In this document: positions 51,379 through 58,945 of the stretch, in pieces | Position numbering within the stretch: the first letter of the stretch is position 1 | How the letters are laid out: the number at the start of each line of letters is the position of its first letter | From: Haloterrigena sp. KLK7 | GTDB lineage: Archaea; Halobacteriota; Halobacteria; Halobacteriales; Natrialbaceae | Assembly: GCF_037914945.1 (NCBI RefSeq) | Contig: NZ_CP149787.1 | Coordinates: 186,001-250,000 of the forward strand | DNA: 64,000 nt | Direction of reading: 5' to 3' | The notes under the pieces: model-generated | Databases searched by the model: none | Told to the model about the DNA's origin: nothing | Seen by the model: the letters and a program-made list of their open reading frames with translations, nothing else | Made by a program: the position numbers and the translations under genes

Positions 51379-51735
51379 ATGAGGGGGGTGGTCGATGAGC
51401 CGGCGGGGAAGATCGAGAACGTGCTGTGGGCGGCGGCCGTGCGCCGTGACCGGTCCCACCGGTTCTCCCAGTGGTACGAGCGGCCGGTGCAGCAGATCGA
51501 CACGCGGGCCGCGCAGTACGACTGGGAGTACTCGTTCCCTGTATCTGATGGCGGGTTCTGGCTGGGCACGGATCCTGAGGGGCATCCGGTTGGGGTGACG
51601 GACGAGCAGTTGACAGCGCACCTGCTGGCGGTGGGGCGGGCCGGTGCCGGACAGACGACGCTGTTCTCCACTCTGCTGGAGGAGTGTGTCCGCGCCGAAT
51701 TGCCGTGCCTCGTCTTTGAGTTCAAGAATATCACC
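51379..51735 (+). pseudogene. ATPase N-terminal fragment (HerA/TraC-like), truncated
   Basis: A frame of about 119 codons: KIENVLWAAAVRRDRSHRFS, then GFWLGTDPEGHPVGVTDEQL, and GRAGAGQTTLFSTLLEECVR. The last resembles a Walker A (GRAGAGKTT) in which lysine is replaced by glutamine, and it is followed by PCLVFEFK where the sequence abruptly joins the 325-bp repeat at 51737. The remainder of the ATPase is missing. It is thus a truncated and probably inactive gene. Confidence 0.65.
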
Positions 51736-51736
51736 G

Positions 51737-52060
51737 GCAGTCGCCAGTGGTGTGTTACTTGTCCCCACATCACATACACAGCTGTATGGATCGCCGAAAG
51801 CGTCTGGGGCTTCGGCTGCATCGAGCGCTGCTCTACTGGGGTCTCCTCCACCATCCGGGCGGGCGCGCGCGGGCGAAAGCGCAGTATACGCCGCTGGGTG
51901 GGACCCGGACGCCTGAGGCTGACGACGTCCCTGCTCCCAGCGACCAGTCCCACCCCTCCCACTGACACGGACCGTGTGGGCCACCGGCCGCTCGCTGTAG
52001 ATTCCGGCGTTAGCTCGGCGTCGGCCGTCACACGTGGGACGGCTGGTTGGATCATGATGG
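51737..52060 (+). repeat. Direct repeat of about 325 bp, left copy
   Basis: Matches 54285-54620 in the same orientation over its length, from CAGTCGCCA--GGTGTGTTACTT to the GTCGGCCGTC area. Each copy contains one member of the small-protein family (51786 and 54352). The two copies bracket the partial pyruvyl transferase and the flippase gene. The left copy directly abuts the truncated ATPase. Confidence 0.8.
51786..51965 (+). CDS. Unrecognised 59-residue protein family, copy 1
   Basis: A 59-residue protein, MDRRKRLGLRLHRALLYWGL then LHHPGGRARAKAQYTPLGGT. The first half is a basic amphipathic helix with aromatic LLYWGLL. The copy at 54352 is nearly identical, while the one at 57621 is diverged in DNA but keeps RKRLGLRLHRALLYWGLL, HPxGR and YTPLGG, which argues that selection acts on the protein. 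Location inside a direct repeat. Function unknown; possibly a membrane-associated or RNA-binding small protein. Confidence 0.65.
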   Translation: MDRRKRLGLRLHRALLYWGLLHHPGGRARAKAQYTPLGGTRTPEADDVPAPSDQSHPSH

Positions 52061-52229
52061 GCGTGCCACGCCGTGGTTCGCGGGGTGGGGCTCGTGGGCG
52101 GCAGAACACGGTTTACACCGGATCAACTTGAGGCGTGTCTAGGCGTGGTGGACGACGCCCGCGGCCAGCCTGTTTGGAGTGCCGAGTGGGAGCGTCGGCG
52201 GCCGACACGATCGCCTAGAGAAAGACGAT

Positions 52230-52667
52230 ATGTCGAACGACGCGCCGAAGCAGTACTTTGGATACACGGAATTGGAGGGTGCCGCGGAGCGCTTCATTAG
52301 AAACGCCCAGCAGATATGCGAGAGTATCGAGAACTCGGTATTCATACCGTTCACGCCAAAAGACGAGAAATTCGCGCAGAAACATCTCGATATCCCGATC
52401 TTACCGTATCAGTTCTCTGTAGAGATGACGCTCAAGAGAGTATCAAGTGTCGACCAAATGGTTGCAGCGCGGTACCACTCGCTCATTTTCGCCGCGATCT
52501 GCGGAAAGCCAATACTGCCACTTACCTATGAGCCGAAAGTAGAGCAGGTAGCGGAACGACTCAATTTATCATACTACAAACCCCATAAAGACATTGAGGT
52601 CAAATTCTCGATACCATCTAATGTCGATCAGCTTCAGAGATACACGAAAAGAGCTTCGATCTATTAA
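52230..52667 (+). pseudogene. Polysaccharide pyruvyl transferase, C-terminal part
   Basis: A 145-residue frame beginning MSNDAPKQYFGYTELEGAAE. The segment VDQMVAARYHSLIFAAICGK then PILPLTYEPKVEQVAERLNL is the conserved C-terminal core of the PS_pyruv_trans (CsaB/WcaK-like) family, which adds pyruvyl ketals to exported polysaccharides. The family is normally over 300 residues, so the N-terminal half is missing. Its AT-richer composition matches the following flippase. Confidence 0.7.
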
Positions 52668-52751
52668 TTCAGGCTATGGAGTAGATTTGTGGATGATTCC
52701 CCGTCACAGAACCGTTTGAACTAAGTTCTGAAATGGGATAGGTCCTATATC

Positions 52752-54212
52752 ATGGCATCACTCCTTCGATCGATTATTTCTATTTTTTTCGGGAAGTTTG
52801 CTGGGCTGATCATCAGTATACTGTTCACCCCCATTCTCGTCCGAGTTATCTCACAATCTCAGTACGGGGTATACGCAACCGTACTGGCCGGATTTAGCAT
52901 TATCACACTCATATCTAAGGGGGGGCTATTCGATGCGACGAGGAAAGTAGTTGGAGATGGGAAAGACGACAGCCACAGAGTATCGAAAGTCGTCTCAATT
53001 TCGTTGCTGATCGGCATAGTTTACGCACTATTGGCCGGAATTGCTGTCCTGTTATCGTCTAATTTGGGCGTCCTACCCGCAACGTATGTACCATACACTT
53101 GGGCGATTATTCTAGTAGTCTTCTTCGGCAATGTGTATGCCGTTGCCAGAGCTGCTTTCTACGGTATACAGCGAGAGTCAATCGCTGAAGCGCTTAATAT
53201 TGGTCGCCAGCTGGTGTACACCTCTGTTGCACTGCTATTGGCGTACATTGGGTATGATGTGGTCGGTGTATTTACCGGGTACGTATTTTCATTCGTGCTC
53301 CTATGTATCCTTGGATTGCTCGTTTTGCGGAGGTCTATCCCCATCGAGATGCCATCGAGGGATGACGTTTCCGAATATGGTCGAGAAATCATCTCGTTTG
53401 GCGGATACCAGCTCATCGGTGGTGTGAGCGCAATGTTGCTGTACAAGGTAGATCTTCTTCTCGTCGAGTCCTTTCAGGGTCAGACCTCGGCTGCCCTCTA
53501 TCAGAGTGCTATCGTTCCAGCGGAGATGATTTGGTTCGTCCCATCGGTTATTCAGGCTGCATTCTTACAGCACACGGCTCACTTATGGTCAAACGGCGAT
53601 ATTGATACAATAAACAGTAATCTAAAAGAAGGGTTTAAATATGCCGTTCTAGCATTATCACTATTTGGTATTGGTCTCTTCACCCTTGCAGACTCGTTTC
53701 TCAGTGTTTACTTTGGACCGAGCTACTCCGCGTCATCTACAACATTGCAAATCCTGCTCATCGGGACGTTCTTTTTGGGGACCACCCGAGTCGTAACGCC
53801 GGTGCTACACGCGACGGGATGGGTTCGGGAATCCGAAGCTATCACCGTCGCAGGATTGTGTATCAACTTGGTGTTGAATGTTCTCCTAATACCTAAGTAC
53901 GGCATCATCGGTGCAGGTATCGGGACTGGTGTCTCTTATGTCGCGATATTCGCAGGGAACACCTTGCTCTGGAAGCGATCCCCACTTCGGATCGTTTCCC
54001 TCCGCTGGGTAGTCAGACTGATCGCGGTTCAGCTGATATTCCTTGCTGTGTTCTACATGACTGTCTCGTCCTTCAGCTACTCGCCGCTGGTATCGCTACT
54101 CGTATTCCCACCATTCGGACTACTGATGTTCTTGTCTTTAAACGTTACAGCGGGCTACATTCCGGTTGAACTGATCAGAGAGTTTTTGCACAAGGTACAA
54201 CTAGACAGGTAA
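52752..54212 (+). CDS. Polysaccharide flippase (Wzx/MATE-like)
   Basis: A 486-residue integral membrane protein with about 14 helices (e.g. AGLIISILFTPILVRVISQS, GIVYALLAGIAVLLSSNLGV), the pattern of Wzx-type oligosaccharide-lipid flippases of the MATE/MOP superfamily. The opening FFGKFAGLIISILFTPILVR with SQYGVYATVLAGFSII is diagnostic. It would move a lipid-linked glycan across the membrane for S-layer or exopolysaccharide glycosylation. GC content is lower than in the backbone, indicating a horizontally acquired glycan gene. It follows the pyruvyl-transferase fragment by 84 bp. Confidence 0.9.
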   Translation: MASLLRSIISIFFGKFAGLIISILFTPILVRVISQSQYGVYATVLAGFSIITLISKGGLFDATRKVVGDGKDDSHRVSKVVSISLLIGIVYALLAGIAVLLSSNLGVLPATYVPYTWAIILVVFFGNVYAVARAAFYGIQRESIAEALNIGRQLVYTSVALLLAYIGYDVVGVFTGYVFSFVLLCILGLLVLRRSIPIEMPSRDDVSEYGREIISFGGYQLIGGVSAMLLYKVDLLLVESFQGQTSAALYQSAIVPAEMIWFVPSVIQAAFLQHTAHLWSNGDIDTINSNLKEGFKYAVLALSLFGIGLFTLADSFLSVYFGPSYSASSTTLQILLIGTFFLGTTRVVTPVLHATGWVRESEAITVAGLCINLVLNVLLIPKYGIIGAGIGTGVSYVAIFAGNTLLWKRSPLRIVSLRWVVRLIAVQLIFLAVFYMTVSSFSYSPLVSLLVFPPFGLLMFLSLNVTAGYIPVELIREFLHKVQLDR

Positions 54213-54284
54213 CCGACAACGAGGCTACTGGTACTCCAGAGCGTCCCGTCTGGAAATGACAACAAACTATGATTTAGTGATTTT

Positions 54285-54620
54285 CGTGAGGTGTTCTCAC
54301 CAGCAGTCGCCACCGGTGTGTTACTTGTGCCCACACAACATATACGGCTGTATGGACCGCCGAAAGCGTCTGGGGCTCCGGTTGCATCGCGCGCTGCTCT
54401 ACTGGGGTCTCCTTCACCACCCGGGCGGTCGCGCGCGGGCGAAAGCACAGTATACGCCGCTGGGCGGGACCCGCACGGCTGAGGCTGACGACGTCTCTGC
54501 TTCCAGCGAACAGTCCCACCCCTCCCACTGACGCGAGCCGTGTGGGCCACCGGCCGCCCGCTGTGGATACCGGCGTTCGGCTCGGCGTCGGCCGTCCCCC
54601 GTGTGATGGCTGGCTAGGCG
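54285..54620 (+). repeat. Direct repeat of about 325 bp, right copy
   Basis: Second copy of 51737-52060, same orientation. It begins about 70 bp after the flippase stop and contains the second small-protein copy (54352-54531). An IS-end-like segment (about 54230-54290), similar to 32665-32720, immediately precedes it. Confidence 0.8.
54352..54531 (+). CDS. Unrecognised 59-residue protein family, copy 2
   Basis: A 59-residue protein nearly identical to 51786-51965: MDRRKRLGLRLHRALLYWGL, LHHPGGRARAKAQYTPLGGT, ending SASSEQSHPSH. Four or so substitutions separate it from copy 1. The 57621 copy shows the family is conserved beyond this duplication. Whether this copy is expressed is unknown. Confidence 0.62.
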   Translation: MDRRKRLGLRLHRALLYWGLLHHPGGRARAKAQYTPLGGTRTAEADDVSASSEQSHPSH

Positions 54621-55267
54621 GGCGTGGTGTGGGCGTTCGCGTATCCCTGGGACCGCGTGCGTGAGCCGGGCCGCCGGCATGCGGTCCTCGAGGCAGATCC
54701 GCCACCGCTGCGCGTTCAGGCGTTGGTCCGCTTTCTCGAGGACCGCTGTCCCACCTGTGGCGCACACCGGGGTTCCCGCTGCAATGACTGGTGTCTGACT
54801 GGTGCGTACCTCGGGTTGAGCGCGAACGCGAAGTGCTCACGGATAGAGAGGGTGACGACCGATTGCGAGCACAAAAGGCAGCAACGGTCCGGCGGCGGAC
54901 GTTTGGTAATCTCGCAGCGACTGTCGCGGTCCTTGCACACCACCCGGCGGTACTCGCCGAGAGCGAGCGAGTCTCTGTGACGAGGTCGACCCAATGTAAG
55001 CGGAGGGTGGGGGTCATCAATACCGTCTGGCCGCGTCTCGTCCATCCTGCCCAATTCGCGTCTCCCGTCCCTCGAGTTGTGCACTGTGCCGACCTTGGCG
55101 CTGCCAGTTGTGCTCCCCTCAGTGTCGAGCGCACGCAGCACGAGCCACGCGGTGCTGGCAGCGACGCTGATCCCATTCTGGTGCCGACGAGGGTTGCAGT
55201 ACAGTCTCGGCGGGCGTGGCACGCGGTGCGGGTCCACGTACCGTGACCGACCGCGATCGCCGTGGTC
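54621..55267. other. Intergenic region of about 650 bp, no convincing gene
   Basis: A rightward frame near 54624-54800 contains the cysteine-rich piece DRCPTCGAHRGSRCNDWC, possibly a fragment of a zinc-ribbon protein, but it has no acceptable whole. Elsewhere only shadow frames. Confidence 0.4.
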
Positions 55268-55504
55268 TCAGGCGTCGCGGGGATCCTCAACGAATTCGTA
55301 GAGTCCGCGTGAGACACGTTTGATCCAGCCGGCATCGCGAAGACTCCGGAGGGAAAACTCGACGTTGCCTTTCTCAAGGTCGGTTTCGTCCATCAACCAT
55401 CGTGGATTGGCCCGGCCCCACGGATCGTTGTTCTCACGCCCTTGTTTCAGCGCGTTCAAGACGAGCTCGTCGTTCTCAGTCGGTTCATATCGCTCATTGA
55501 CCAT
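55268..55504 (-). CDS. Small winged-helix protein
   Basis: A 78-residue protein, MVNERYEPTENDELVLNALK QGRENNDPWGRANPRWLMDE as first half, then VEFSLRSLRDAGWIKRVSRG LYEFVEDPRDA. This is a winged helix (helix-turn-helix with wing WIKRVSRGLYEFV), a small DNA-binding regulator. A frameshifted paralogue lies at 61604-61860, ending VDAGWVKKTSRGLYRFIFGP. Its target is unknown. Confidence 0.75.
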   Translation of the reverse strand: MVNERYEPTENDELVLNALKQGRENNDPWGRANPRWLMDETDLEKGNVEFSLRSLRDAGWIKRVSRGLYEFVEDPRDA

Positions 55505-55708
55505 ATCTTAGGCCATACTTCACGTCCGTCCCCATAGTAGAATATCCTTCGTAATGCACCTTCGTCTGCGATTTGCTTTCCACTTTGCTTTGCAAAGTTA
55601 TATGGTGCTGGCTGGTGAAGATCCTTTTAGAGAAGCGCGAAGCGTCACGGAAAGACAGTGGCTCGGTGCTGGCACACCGAACCGCGCTTCTCAGAGGCTC
55701 GAGAAGCA
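55505..55708. promoter_or_regulatory. AT-rich divergent promoter region
   Basis: A 204-bp gap between the leftward winged-helix gene and the rightward HNH operon. An AT-rich tract with GCTTTGCAAAGTTATATGG lies at about 55588-55606; TTTGCAAAG within it is a short palindrome that could be an operator, and TTATATGG a TATA box for the rightward operon. Confidence 0.4.
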
Positions 55709-55858
55709 ATGTTAGCTACGGATCCCATCACTGAAAGCGACCCGGTTGACGAACTGTGTGATCACGACTGGTGTGACGGTCCGACTATGGACCGACTCCC
55801 CTGTTTTGCGTGCTTCAACGCGACGCGCCATCCGGAGGCGAGGTCCGATGCCCAGTAA
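55709..55858 (+). CDS. Small Cys/His-rich protein, first gene of HNH operon
   Basis: A 49-residue protein, MLATDPITESDPVDELCDHD then WCDGPTMDRLPCFACFNATR. Cys and His residues (C17, H19, C22, C32, C35) can bind a metal. It ends overlapping the next gene (55848) by 11 bp, so the three genes to 57001 form a tightly coupled operon. No family recognised. Confidence 0.6.
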   Translation: MLATDPITESDPVDELCDHDWCDGPTMDRLPCFACFNATRHPEARSDAQ

Positions 55859-56252
55859 CGACGCTTGTCGACATCGGTCGGCGATCGATGACGCCCACAA
55901 TGACGAGCCCACGGTCATCGCGACCCTGGAGGCGGTGTTAGCCGGCCACCCCATTGGGCCGCGCTCGAATGGCGCCCTCTGCATTGGCTGTGGGGCAGTC
56001 CTCCACGAGACGGATATCGTGTTCGCATATGCGTATCGCTGCGCTGAATCAGTACAGTGGAATGTCCCCCGACTGTACTGTTATAGCTGTACGCCCAGCA
56101 CGATTAAGTCGCCGACGCTTGGCACGACAGAGGTCCTAATGGGTGGCCGCCTTGGAGCGATCGCACTGCCAACGTCGCGGACACATCAACTCTGTCTCAC
56201 TGAATTGGCAGTTCGAGCATACAGTAATCCTACGGAGGGGCGTCCGCCATGA
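55848..56252 (+). CDS. Zinc-ribbon protein, second gene of HNH operon
   Basis: A 134-residue protein. VIATLEAVLAGHPIGPRSNG precedes a two-knuckle ribbon: ALCIGCGAVLHETDIVFAYA YRCAES, then PRLYCYSCTPSTIKSPTLGT. Four Cys in two CxxC pairs suggest one zinc ribbon. Similar proteins occur on haloarchaeal plasmids. Its last four bases overlap the ATG of the HNH gene (ATGA), so the products are made together. It may be a DNA-recognition or inhibitor partner of the nuclease; that is inference. Confidence 0.72.
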   Translation: MPSNDACRHRSAIDDAHNDEPTVIATLEAVLAGHPIGPRSNGALCIGCGAVLHETDIVFAYAYRCAESVQWNVPRLYCYSCTPSTIKSPTLGTTEVLMGGRLGAIALPTSRTHQLCLTELAVRAYSNPTEGRPP

Positions 56253-57001
56253 GTTCTCAGTGGGACCTGTCGGATATTCTTGACGAAGATCAAGAGACAG
56301 ATACTAGTCCTGTTGAGTTCGACGCTCCAGCCTCGCGCAGCTCCGACTGGAAAAATCGCGCAACCGAGATTAAAGAGCGCGACAATTATGTATGCCAACG
56401 CTGCGGCGACCACAACGGGAATCACGAGCAATCTCCACTCTCGCTGGAGACCCACCATATCGTTCCCGGGAAGTATCTACCAAAGTCAGATGCCCGCGTT
56501 GGGCTTAACCTCGTAACCGTCTGTGAGTCGTGCCATGGATTTCTCGAAGGGTCTCATGTCGAATGGCAGTTGGCTGAGATCGGACGCGATGATGCACTTC
56601 AAATTCTTACGGTGTTGAAGGAGCGAAGACTTACTCCGCACCATCTCTCACGAAAATTGGATATTTCGGAAGACCGTATCCGATCGCTCGTCTCTCTGCT
56701 CGAACGGATGAACTGCTTGACTACACAGGGCGATGGACGGTATCGGACAGTGTGTCCTGCAACATCAAAATCAAGAGTTAGAAAAGCCCGATTTCGATGG
56801 AAGCAGAAGCACGCAGTCCGGCAGCCACTCGAAGAGATGCTGACCGAGCTTCAGCGGACTATGACGACTAGTCTCGATGAATTAGAGTACGCACTCGAGG
56901 CTGGTGATCGAGACCAAGTTGAGTCGATGCTCGAACGGATGCGAAACACGATTACAGAAGCTGATTTCGAGGAGGCAGTCTCTACGAATGATGACAGATA
57001 A
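56249..57001 (+). CDS. HNH endonuclease with C-terminal HTH and coiled coil
   Basis: A 250-residue protein. The HNH domain has zinc knuckles CQRCGDH (C49/C52) and CESCHGF (C92/C95), and catalytic-type H69-H70, N87 and H96 (ETHHIVPG, GLNLVTVC). Residues about 120-165 (LTPHHLSRKLDISEDRIRSL VSLLERMNCLTTQGDGRYRT) form a winged helix, and the rest is a helical coiled coil. HNH nucleases of this type act in phage or plasmid biology, defence or homing. A decayed paralogue lies at 58282-58945. Confidence 0.85.
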   Translation: MSSQWDLSDILDEDQETDTSPVEFDAPASRSSDWKNRATEIKERDNYVCQRCGDHNGNHEQSPLSLETHHIVPGKYLPKSDARVGLNLVTVCESCHGFLEGSHVEWQLAEIGRDDALQILTVLKERRLTPHHLSRKLDISEDRIRSLVSLLERMNCLTTQGDGRYRTVCPATSKSRVRKARFRWKQKHAVRQPLEEMLTELQRTMTTSLDELEYALEAGDRDQVESMLERMRNTITEADFEEAVSTNDDR

Positions 57002-57092
57002 GTCACTATTTTGCTATATGAGGACTGATAGACGAGCCGTCATCCACTAGTGATGCTATCCTCGCTATTCACCCATTTCAGTAGTGCCGATA

Positions 57093-57431
57093 TTAATCGG
57101 TAACCGTCCTCATAACTGAATACGTTCGGTATTTGAGACCGTTCTTGCACGGGGTGTGTTTGCGGACCGCCAGCCGATGTTTGGAGAGCTCGAGGGCCGC
57201 GTCGATCGCGCGGGAGACGAACTTCTTTGCGTAGGTCTCGCTGACACTGTCCTCCTGGCGGCGGATCCAGTGTTTCAGGTCGGAGGCAGTGACGTACTCG
57301 TTGACGGACTTGCAGTCGTCCGTCAAGGAATCATCTCCGACTGTTGGGTCGGTTCTGGCCGCCCAGAGTTTGGCGGCCAGTCGGGTGCTTACGTCGTTTC
57401 GCACCTCGAGCCCGTCACCCCTTTCAGTCAC
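57093..57431 (-). CDS. Hypothetical protein
   Basis: A 112-residue protein, MTERGDGLEVRNDVSTRLAA, later YVTASDLKHWIRRQEDSVSE and AKKFVSRAIDAALELSKHRL. Helical and mildly basic, perhaps nucleic-acid binding. Composition supports coding. It lies downstream and convergent to the HNH operon. No family recognised. Confidence 0.55.
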   Translation of the reverse strand: MTERGDGLEVRNDVSTRLAAKLWAARTDPTVGDDSLTDDCKSVNEYVTASDLKHWIRRQEDSVSETYAKKFVSRAIDAALELSKHRLAVRKHTPCKNGLKYRTYSVMRTVTD

Positions 57432-57620
57432 ACCTGCGGTGGTCTAATCGGGAAGCTATCGATAGCGGTTACAGAGTACTAGTACTAGCATCGAACTAGG
57501 TCATCCGTTCGATGAGAGTTCAGGTAACTGTGTTCGACTCTGGGTTTTCGTCTGTCGAGTATAGTTATTGGATATAATAGTTGGCGTCATCCGTATTAGG
57601 AGGGTTGTCGAGGTAGCCGT

Positions 57621-57803
57621 ATGAGTCTCCGGAAGCGACTAGGATTACGACTCCACCGGGCGCTCCTCTACTGGGGGCTCTTGGACCATCCGTACGGTCG
57701 CGAGTACACGAAAGAACGATACACGCCACTCGGCGGGGAACGCGAAGAATTTGCGATGAACGAAAACGACGATTCGGCGGGCCTGAACAAGGAAGATAGG
57801 TAA
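57621..57803 (+). CDS. Unrecognised 60-residue protein family, copy 3 (diverged)
   Basis: A 60-residue protein, MSLRKRLGLRLHRALLYWGL then LDHPYGREYTKERYTPLGGE, ending acidic (FAMNENDDSAGLNKEDR). Its DNA differs from the copies at 51786 and 54352 at many third positions, but the protein is conserved in RKRLGLRLHRALLYWGLL and YTPLGG; this indicates purifying selection on the peptide. An AT-rich tract upstream (57565-57590, ATAGTTATTGGATATAATAG) provides a plausible promoter. Function unknown. Confidence 0.7.
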   Translation: MSLRKRLGLRLHRALLYWGLLDHPYGREYTKERYTPLGGEREEFAMNENDDSAGLNKEDR

Positions 57804-57825: not shown

Positions 57826-58028
57826 CTACCAGTTGCCGTCAATCGCCCGCCGGTAGCACTGCTCCGCCTGCTCTGCGACGGAGTCCCAGTCGTATTGCTG
57901 GGCTCGAGTCGTCGGCTCCGTAGTCGGTCGTTCACCGGAGAGTGCGCGCTCAAGGGTATCGGTTACGTCGTCAATCGTCAGTGACATGAAGAATCCGACG
58001 TCATCGATCACTTCGGAAGCGGCGGACT
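57826..58028 (-). pseudogene. Glycosyltransferase family 4 C-terminal fragment
   Basis: The leftward frame reads AASEVIDDVGFFMSLTIDDV TDTLERALSG, then QYDWDSVAEQAEQCYRRAID and stops. This is the ending of GT4-type glycosyltransferases (a GxxSEVI-like donor motif, then FSWxxxAxxxxxxY near the C-terminus). Everything upstream is lost: at about 58035 the sequence switches to Orc1-derived DNA. It is the tail of a gene cut by recombination. Confidence 0.68.
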
Positions 58029-58034
58029 CTGGAT

Positions 58035-58281
58035 GCAATCTGCCGCCGACAGTCTCAGTGTACGGGCCGCCCGGCACGGGGAAGACCCTGACGACACGGC
58101 GGATCTGCCGGGCGTTCGCCGCCTACCATGACGACGTTGCGGTGGAGTACGTCAACCTCAAGGAGTGTCGGACGCTGTTCAGCGCGGCCAACGAAATCCT
58201 GTTCGCGTTGACCGGCGACAAGAGGGACGCCTACGAGGGATTAGTGGGGTCTTTACCGCCATTTGGACGGCCCTCGAGGCC
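58035..58281 (+). pseudogene. Orc1/Cdc6 fragment (third copy)
   Basis: The sequence matches the intact gene around residues 55-135, including Walker A GPPGTGKT and VEYVNLKECRTLFSAANEIL. It begins with LPPTVSVYGPPGTG and ends mid-gene (GSLPPF), after a one-base deletion near 58243 relative to the 27.1-kb copy. It is open into the HNH fragment that follows, forming a chimeric frame. Confidence 0.85.
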
Positions 58282-58945
58282 CGACGCTCCAGCCTCGCGC
58301 AGTCTGACTGAGAAAAGCACGCAACTGGGAAAGGAGCGAGACAAGTATGTATGCCAACGCTGTGGCGATCACAACGGGAATTACGAGCAATCTCCACCCT
58401 CGTTGGAGACCCCATCATATCGTTCCCGGAAAGTATCTACCAAAGTCAGATGCCCGCTTGGGCTTAACCTCGTAACCGTCTGTGAGCCGTGCCACGGATT
58501 TCTCGAAGGGGCTCATGTCGAATGGCAGTTGGCTGAGATCGGACGCGACGATGCACTTCGAATTCTTACGGTGTTGAAGGAGTGGAGACTTACTTCGCAC
58601 CTCTTCTCACGAAAACTGGATATCTCGGAAAACTGTGTCCGATCACTCGTCTCTCTGCTCGAATGGATGAGCTGCTTGACTACACAGGGGGATGGATGGT
58701 ACCAGACAGTGTGTCCCGCAACATCAAAATCAAGAGTTGGAAAAGCTCCATACTGATGGAAGCAGAACCATGCAGTCCGACAGCCACTTAGGGAGATGTT
58801 GAACGACCTTCGACAGACTATGATGACTGGTCTCGATGAATTAGAGTACGTACTCGAGGCTGGTAATCGAGACCAAGTTGAGTCGATACTTAAACAGATG
58901 CGGAAAACGATTACTGCAGATGATTTCGAGCCGGGGAGCTGGGCT
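58282..58945 (+). pseudogene. HNH endonuclease pseudogene (second copy)
   Basis: The sequence matches 56320-57000. It begins DAPASRSLTEKSTQLGKERD. A one-base insertion near 58408 and a one-base deletion near 58452 put the segment ETHHIVPGKYLPKSDAR out of frame, so the copy reads ETPSYRSRKVSTKVRC there, destroying the catalytic histidines. The frame stops at 58756, but similarity runs to about 58945. It is open from the Orc1 fragment, so a 256-residue chimera could be made. Confidence 0.8.

Follow-up and report, generated by a model that had tools for sequence, protein, structure and literature searches.

Motility genes of Haloferax volcanii are controlled within the CsmR motility and cell-shape regulon, in which ChIP-seq located the CsmR site TATCA(N4)TGATA at motility promoters, and EarA is reported in the same source to be absent from haloarchaea (PMC13286277). 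Haloarchaeal zinc-finger micro-proteins such as HVO_2753 and HVO_0758 are shorter than 70 aa, and several of them are reported to influence swarming and biofilms (PMC6562870, PMC10716476). The small-protein family described here is likewise below 70 aa, but it lacks the C(P)XCG pair of the micro-proteins, and its core is basic and helical. One of its branches, type B, has a promoter element in common with ArlC, ArlD and ArlE (PF05377, PF04659), whereas the ArlCDE proteins are large and acidic and have no sequence similarity to it. In another branch, the tail-anchored genes of genus g95, the operator resembles the CsmR site and has the same place as in archaellum and chemotaxis genes. The corresponding element of Natrialbaceae, ACTCACNNYTCGAWACGCSG, has another sequence, and neither of the two is carried by the copies in the window. 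The main text of PMC13286277, as far as searched, does not mention the family. With Pfam DUF6980 (PF22400), copy 1 gave 13.1 bits (E 0.12), a chance-level score below the cut-off of 27 bits, and it is thus not a member.

The window, i.e. the whole stretch of 64,000 nucleotides of Haloterrigena sp. KLK7 that was analysed, includes the following features.

51786..51965, + strand: copy 1, type C, 59 aa, protein beginning MDRRKRLGLRLHRALLYWGLLHHPGGRARAKAQYTPLGG; relatives of type C are found in Natrinema
54352..54531, + strand: copy 2, type C, 59 aa, core protein identical to that of copy 1
57621..57803, + strand: copy 3, type A, 60 aa, protein beginning MSLRKRLGLRLHRALLYWGLLDHPYGREYTKERYTPLGG; orthologues are found elsewhere
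51731..52046, + strand: first unit of the direct repeat, holding copy 1 (repeat comparison)
54297..54613, + strand: second unit of the direct repeat, holding copy 2 (repeat comparison)
57588..57600, + strand: CATCCGTATTAGG, conserved TATA-like block (comparison of type-A upstream sequences)
52752..54212, + strand: polysaccharide flippase (PF01943) between copies 1 and 2, with a homologue directly 3' of type A in G003
57826..58077, - strand: 3' remnant of a family-4 glycosyltransferase gene that converges on copy 3 (relatives compared)

The three small open reading frames with common motifs, all on the + strand, were present as the original prediction had described them, and they share a 41-residue core with RKRLGLRLHRALLYWGLL, HPxGR and YTPLGG. 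Within the 41 core codons, copies 1 and 2 differ by ten synonymous and no non-synonymous changes, for which the neutral probability is approximately 4e-6. Every core change between the two copies is silent, and thus the peptide is the thing preserved. Full conservation (0 residue changes) was seen in the annotated + frame only, the other five frames having 2–9. The core DNA is identical at 113 of the 123 positions, and the flanks of the repeat are somewhat more diverged (47/55, 40/46 and 30/34 identical). The direct repeat carrying copies 1 and 2 was recovered, its length being approximately 316 bp (281 nt at 90% and 34 nt at 88%) instead of the predicted 325 bp. Copy 3 has a DNA identity of 72% (123 nt compared) and, as had been noticed earlier, its differences from copy 1 are mainly at third codon positions (8, 8 and 22 at positions 1, 2 and 3, respectively) while the peptide is kept. 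The acidic C-terminus, which had been considered special to copy 3, is not: the net tail charge is -4 in copy 1 and -5 in copy 3.

Upstream starts that would give longer copies 1 and 2 were rejected. The upstream DNA is 47/55 identical and its in-frame changes alter residues, and the shared ATG is therefore preferred. In types A and B, comparison of the upstream sequences revealed TATA-like blocks approximately 30 nt 5' of the ATG that the members have in common. The position of the type-A block, CATCCGTATTAGG, about 30 nt 5' of the ATG, suggests that type-A genes may have a leaderless transcript; a second occurrence of this block was not found in the window with up to two mismatches. A bacterial promoter and terminator scan gave nothing beyond chance, its models being bacterial and not relevant to archaea.

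Homologues were found in many other haloarchaeal genomes, but their distribution within Halobacteria is patchy, including 16 of the 125 Natrialbaceae genomes and six of the 170 genomes of a second family. They form four branches: type A (copy 3), type B, type C (copies 1 and 2 with their Natrinema relatives) and the tail-anchored branch of genus g95, which belongs to another haloarchaeal family and joins the same core to a C-terminal hydrophobic, transmembrane segment. In G460 and G461 the tail-anchored genes are arranged as tandem pairs. The orthologues of copy 3, from other Haloterrigena-type genomes and Natrinema mahii, have 74–87% identity. Among 18 diverse members R10, W18, H23, P24, G26 and G38 (type-B numbering) are invariant, and R4, G19 and Y34 nearly so. 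In the Haloterrigena sp. KLK7 genome four copies were detectable, all inside 27 kb, and no further copy was found. The fourth, more diverged one is of type B and lies outside the window, 20.7 kb beyond copy 3 (C1:264365-264593). It has lost the YSPTG motif of the C-terminus, its TATA-like block is lost or altered, and judging from this it is probably decaying. A frameshifted type A was also observed in a Natrinema relative (G419:C1:2885821-2885918), in the usual place beside a winged-helix gene.

Selection analysis agreed with the original prediction of a real protein under purifying selection: in addition to the silent changes between copies 1 and 2, dN/dS of orthologues is well below 1, mostly 0.05–0.25. 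Type A has a pooled pN/pS of 0.17 and dN/dS of 0.04–0.25 for pairs with estimable dS, type C 0.25 and 0.02–0.25, respectively, and type B a pooled pN/pS of 0.36. In type A the tail is relaxed and the core held. As dN/dS is well below 1 and the start is conserved across species, the family consists of real coding genes. Neither of the outcomes named beforehand as refuting the prediction, a lack of homologues elsewhere or dN/dS near 1, was observed. The expectation that the motif belongs to no known family also held, no Pfam, NCBIfam, PHROGs or PADLOC model matching these proteins. Two plasmid records contain the gene and list no feature at its position, in a gene table known to be incomplete. 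A viral or mobile-element origin was rejected as there were no homologues in IMG/VR, phages or PHROGs, and a defence protein as there was no PADLOC match. The PDB profile search for a known structure gave chance-level matches only, and weak profile matches in long frames of four genomes (G408, G209, G233 and G302) were taken as chance or unproven. By the sequence comparisons, this is a real, unannotated and strongly conserved haloarchaeal small-protein family, and a new one.

A conserved upstream element was found before type-B genes from four genera. When ACTCACNNYTCGAWACGCSG was searched in the 125 Natrialbaceae genomes, 37 exact matches were found, while the reversed element used as a control had 0 matches in each genome. 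The 37 matches were divided among 25 archaellum loci (archaellin or ArlCE, the latter identified by Pfam PF05377 and PF04659), seven type-B genes, two RHH/KaiC-like loci and three others. In addition to the seven exact matches, the element stands before type B with one mismatch in G005, G242 and the Haloterrigena sp. KLK7 genome. Its distance to the ATG is 68 nt in type B and 71 nt in the archaellum gene, and in both a TATA-like block is present 28–31 nt 5' of the ATG. Also ACTCACNNYTCGAWACGC stands before both arlCE and type B. These positions make ACTCACNNYTCGAWACGCSG a candidate archaellum operator of Natrialbaceae. It was not found in the window with up to three mismatches, and so not before copies 1–3 either; according to the window search and the comparison of upstream sequences, types A and C are without both the archaellum element and the CsmR-like element.

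In many Natrialbaceae ACTCACNNYTCGAWACGCSG was observed between the archaellin genes and arlCE (L114–L123, L124–L149 and L205–L210), and several genomes have, in addition, an inverted second half (CGTATCGAG) directed towards the archaellin side. Inverted ACTCACNNYTCGAWACGCSG is also present before an uncharacterised gene with an RHH-like N-terminus and a coiled coil, located beside a KaiC-like ATPase (L115, L117, L120, L121 and L210), and this gene is a candidate member of the motility regulon.

Tail-anchored genes of g95 have an operator of their own. The pattern TATC-N6-GATAT-N14-TTAT, with up to one mismatch, is located directly before the leaderless ATG in all six of them, and it was matched 58 times in four genomes against three for the control. 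The matches read include ArlCE, ArlD/E, CheY, protoglobin transducer and KaiC-like genes. The operator resembles the CsmR site, and CsmR itself may bind it. With type B behind ACTCACNNYTCGAWACGCSG and the tail-anchored genes behind a CsmR-like operator, two lineages attach different motility operators to the family. The proteins could then represent an unseen motility component, a membrane-surface protein expressed together with the archaellum in two families under two operators, with paralogues recruited to a glycan island; this is a tentative reading, and the chances lie somewhat against it. Archaellins are encoded in 10/10 genomes with type B, but they are common anyway (101 of the 148 relatives), and the co-occurrence is therefore weak by itself. 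The family is wholly absent from many motile haloarchaea, which was counted against the motility reading, and types A or C are present in three genomes without archaellins (G089, G205 and G421).

The genomic-context survey that had been proposed associated the small-protein genes with surface-glycan genes. Types A and C are located at the edge of, or within, a surface-glycan gene island. Type A is found at one edge of the island in Haloterrigena-type genomes and in several Natrinema, on the 3' side of a winged-helix (wHTH) gene, and a family-4 glycosyltransferase gene often converges on it. The usual place of type B is after or next to a block of NAD-epimerase, zinc-ribbon, GT2 and nucleotidyltransferase genes, and in four relatives types A and B are 15–20 kb apart. 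A zinc-ribbon protein of 55–60 aa (CxxC...CxxC; L025 10589-10768 and homologues beside the epimerase) was observed to be conserved in the glycan block, and it has no Pfam match.

Another explanation is that the proteins assist surface-glycan biosynthesis alone, for instance as scaffolds for glycosyltransferases or for the flippase at the membrane, and that the co-regulation of type B with archaella reflects the need of archaellins for glycans. In the Haloterrigena sp. KLK7 genome none of the four copies is farther than 27 kb from a single glycan cluster, the occurrence of types A and C in archaellin-less genomes fits such a role, and so does the flippase, which is found between copies 1 and 2 in the window and, in G003, directly 3' of type A. 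The tail-anchored genes of g95, however, are situated between idi and an Lrp-type regulator gene, beside carA, with no glycan genes nearby, and yet they have the motility operator; also the type B of G020 is outside a glycan island. A role in glycan synthesis alone is regarded as rather unlikely.

AlphaFold models of seven sequences have helices at 3–21 and 24–33, predicted with low confidence (pLDDT 58). In the core, a predicted helix (3–21) is followed by HPxGREY and a second short helix, and these by Y[ST]P[TL]GG. The core is strongly basic, with a charge of +5 to +9 and a moderate helix hydrophobic moment (0.28–0.58), while the tails are acidic, or transmembrane in g95. A basic aromatic helix had been taken as a sign of contact with either membrane or nucleic acid, and the comparison leans towards the membrane because the relatives in another haloarchaeal family have a C-terminal transmembrane segment. 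That segment and the lack of a match to any DNA-binding family make it improbable that the proteins are small nucleic-acid-binding regulators that act on the glycan island or the archaellum through contact of the basic helix with DNA or RNA, even if so positive a core is found amid an acidic haloarchaeal proteome and regulatory wHTH genes are near.

The layout of the island is broken in the window: the flippase separates copies 1 and 2, and beside copy 3 only the 3' end of the family-4 glycosyltransferase is left; in G001, G005, G403 and Natrinema sp. SYSU A 869 this position is occupied by the intact gene. An HNH-type gene (56249-57001) was observed to have a 90% identical, frame-broken copy 1.96 kb downstream (58331-58757), fused to an Orc/AAA-like fragment. 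The duplicated HNH gene and the cut glycosyltransferase mark past insertions. The small genes might be genetic hitch-hikers, marking the edges at which a glycan island was swapped by recombination and having no role there, and copies 1 and 2 as a direct repeat flanking the flippase, the broken glycosyltransferase and HNH/Orc-like fragments, and the patchy distribution of the family are all consistent with this. It is made very improbable by the strong purifying selection acting on the protein and by the dedicated promoters that the genes have in two haloarchaeal families. A toxin-like or secreted cationic peptide is scarcely credible: the proteins are small, basic and helical, but no PADLOC or PHROGs model matched, a signal peptide is not evident, and the relatives appear to be controlled together with motility genes.

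The reading preferred here is that of a real family of membrane-surface accessories, working with the archaellum and chemotaxis apparatus (type B and the tail-anchored proteins) or with surface glycans (types A and C), and it is given about an even chance of being correct. Counted against it are also the low confidence of the AlphaFold models, the moderate hydrophobic moment of the helix and the type-B gene of G020 outside a glycan island. In such a mechanism the basic helix would lie on the acidic (anionic) inner face of the membrane, and the HPxGREY region would recruit or dock a partner from the archaellum or glycan machinery. At the membrane surface, type B and the tail-anchored proteins would then assist the archaellum or chemotaxis apparatus, and types A and C, including the three copies of the window, the decoration of the cell surface with glycans. 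Types A and C are without the motility elements and are present in archaellin-less genomes, and therefore the link of the window copies to motility is by homology only. What is best supported for the window copies is a probable role at the cell surface, next to the glycan island, with a link to motility through homology.

The finding adds to haloarchaea an unannotated, conserved small-protein family with a testable job. If the motility-component reading is true, ACTCACNNYTCGAWACGCSG would be a hitherto unknown archaellum operator of Natrialbaceae, and as a candidate operator it bears on how motility is controlled in haloarchaea without EarA.
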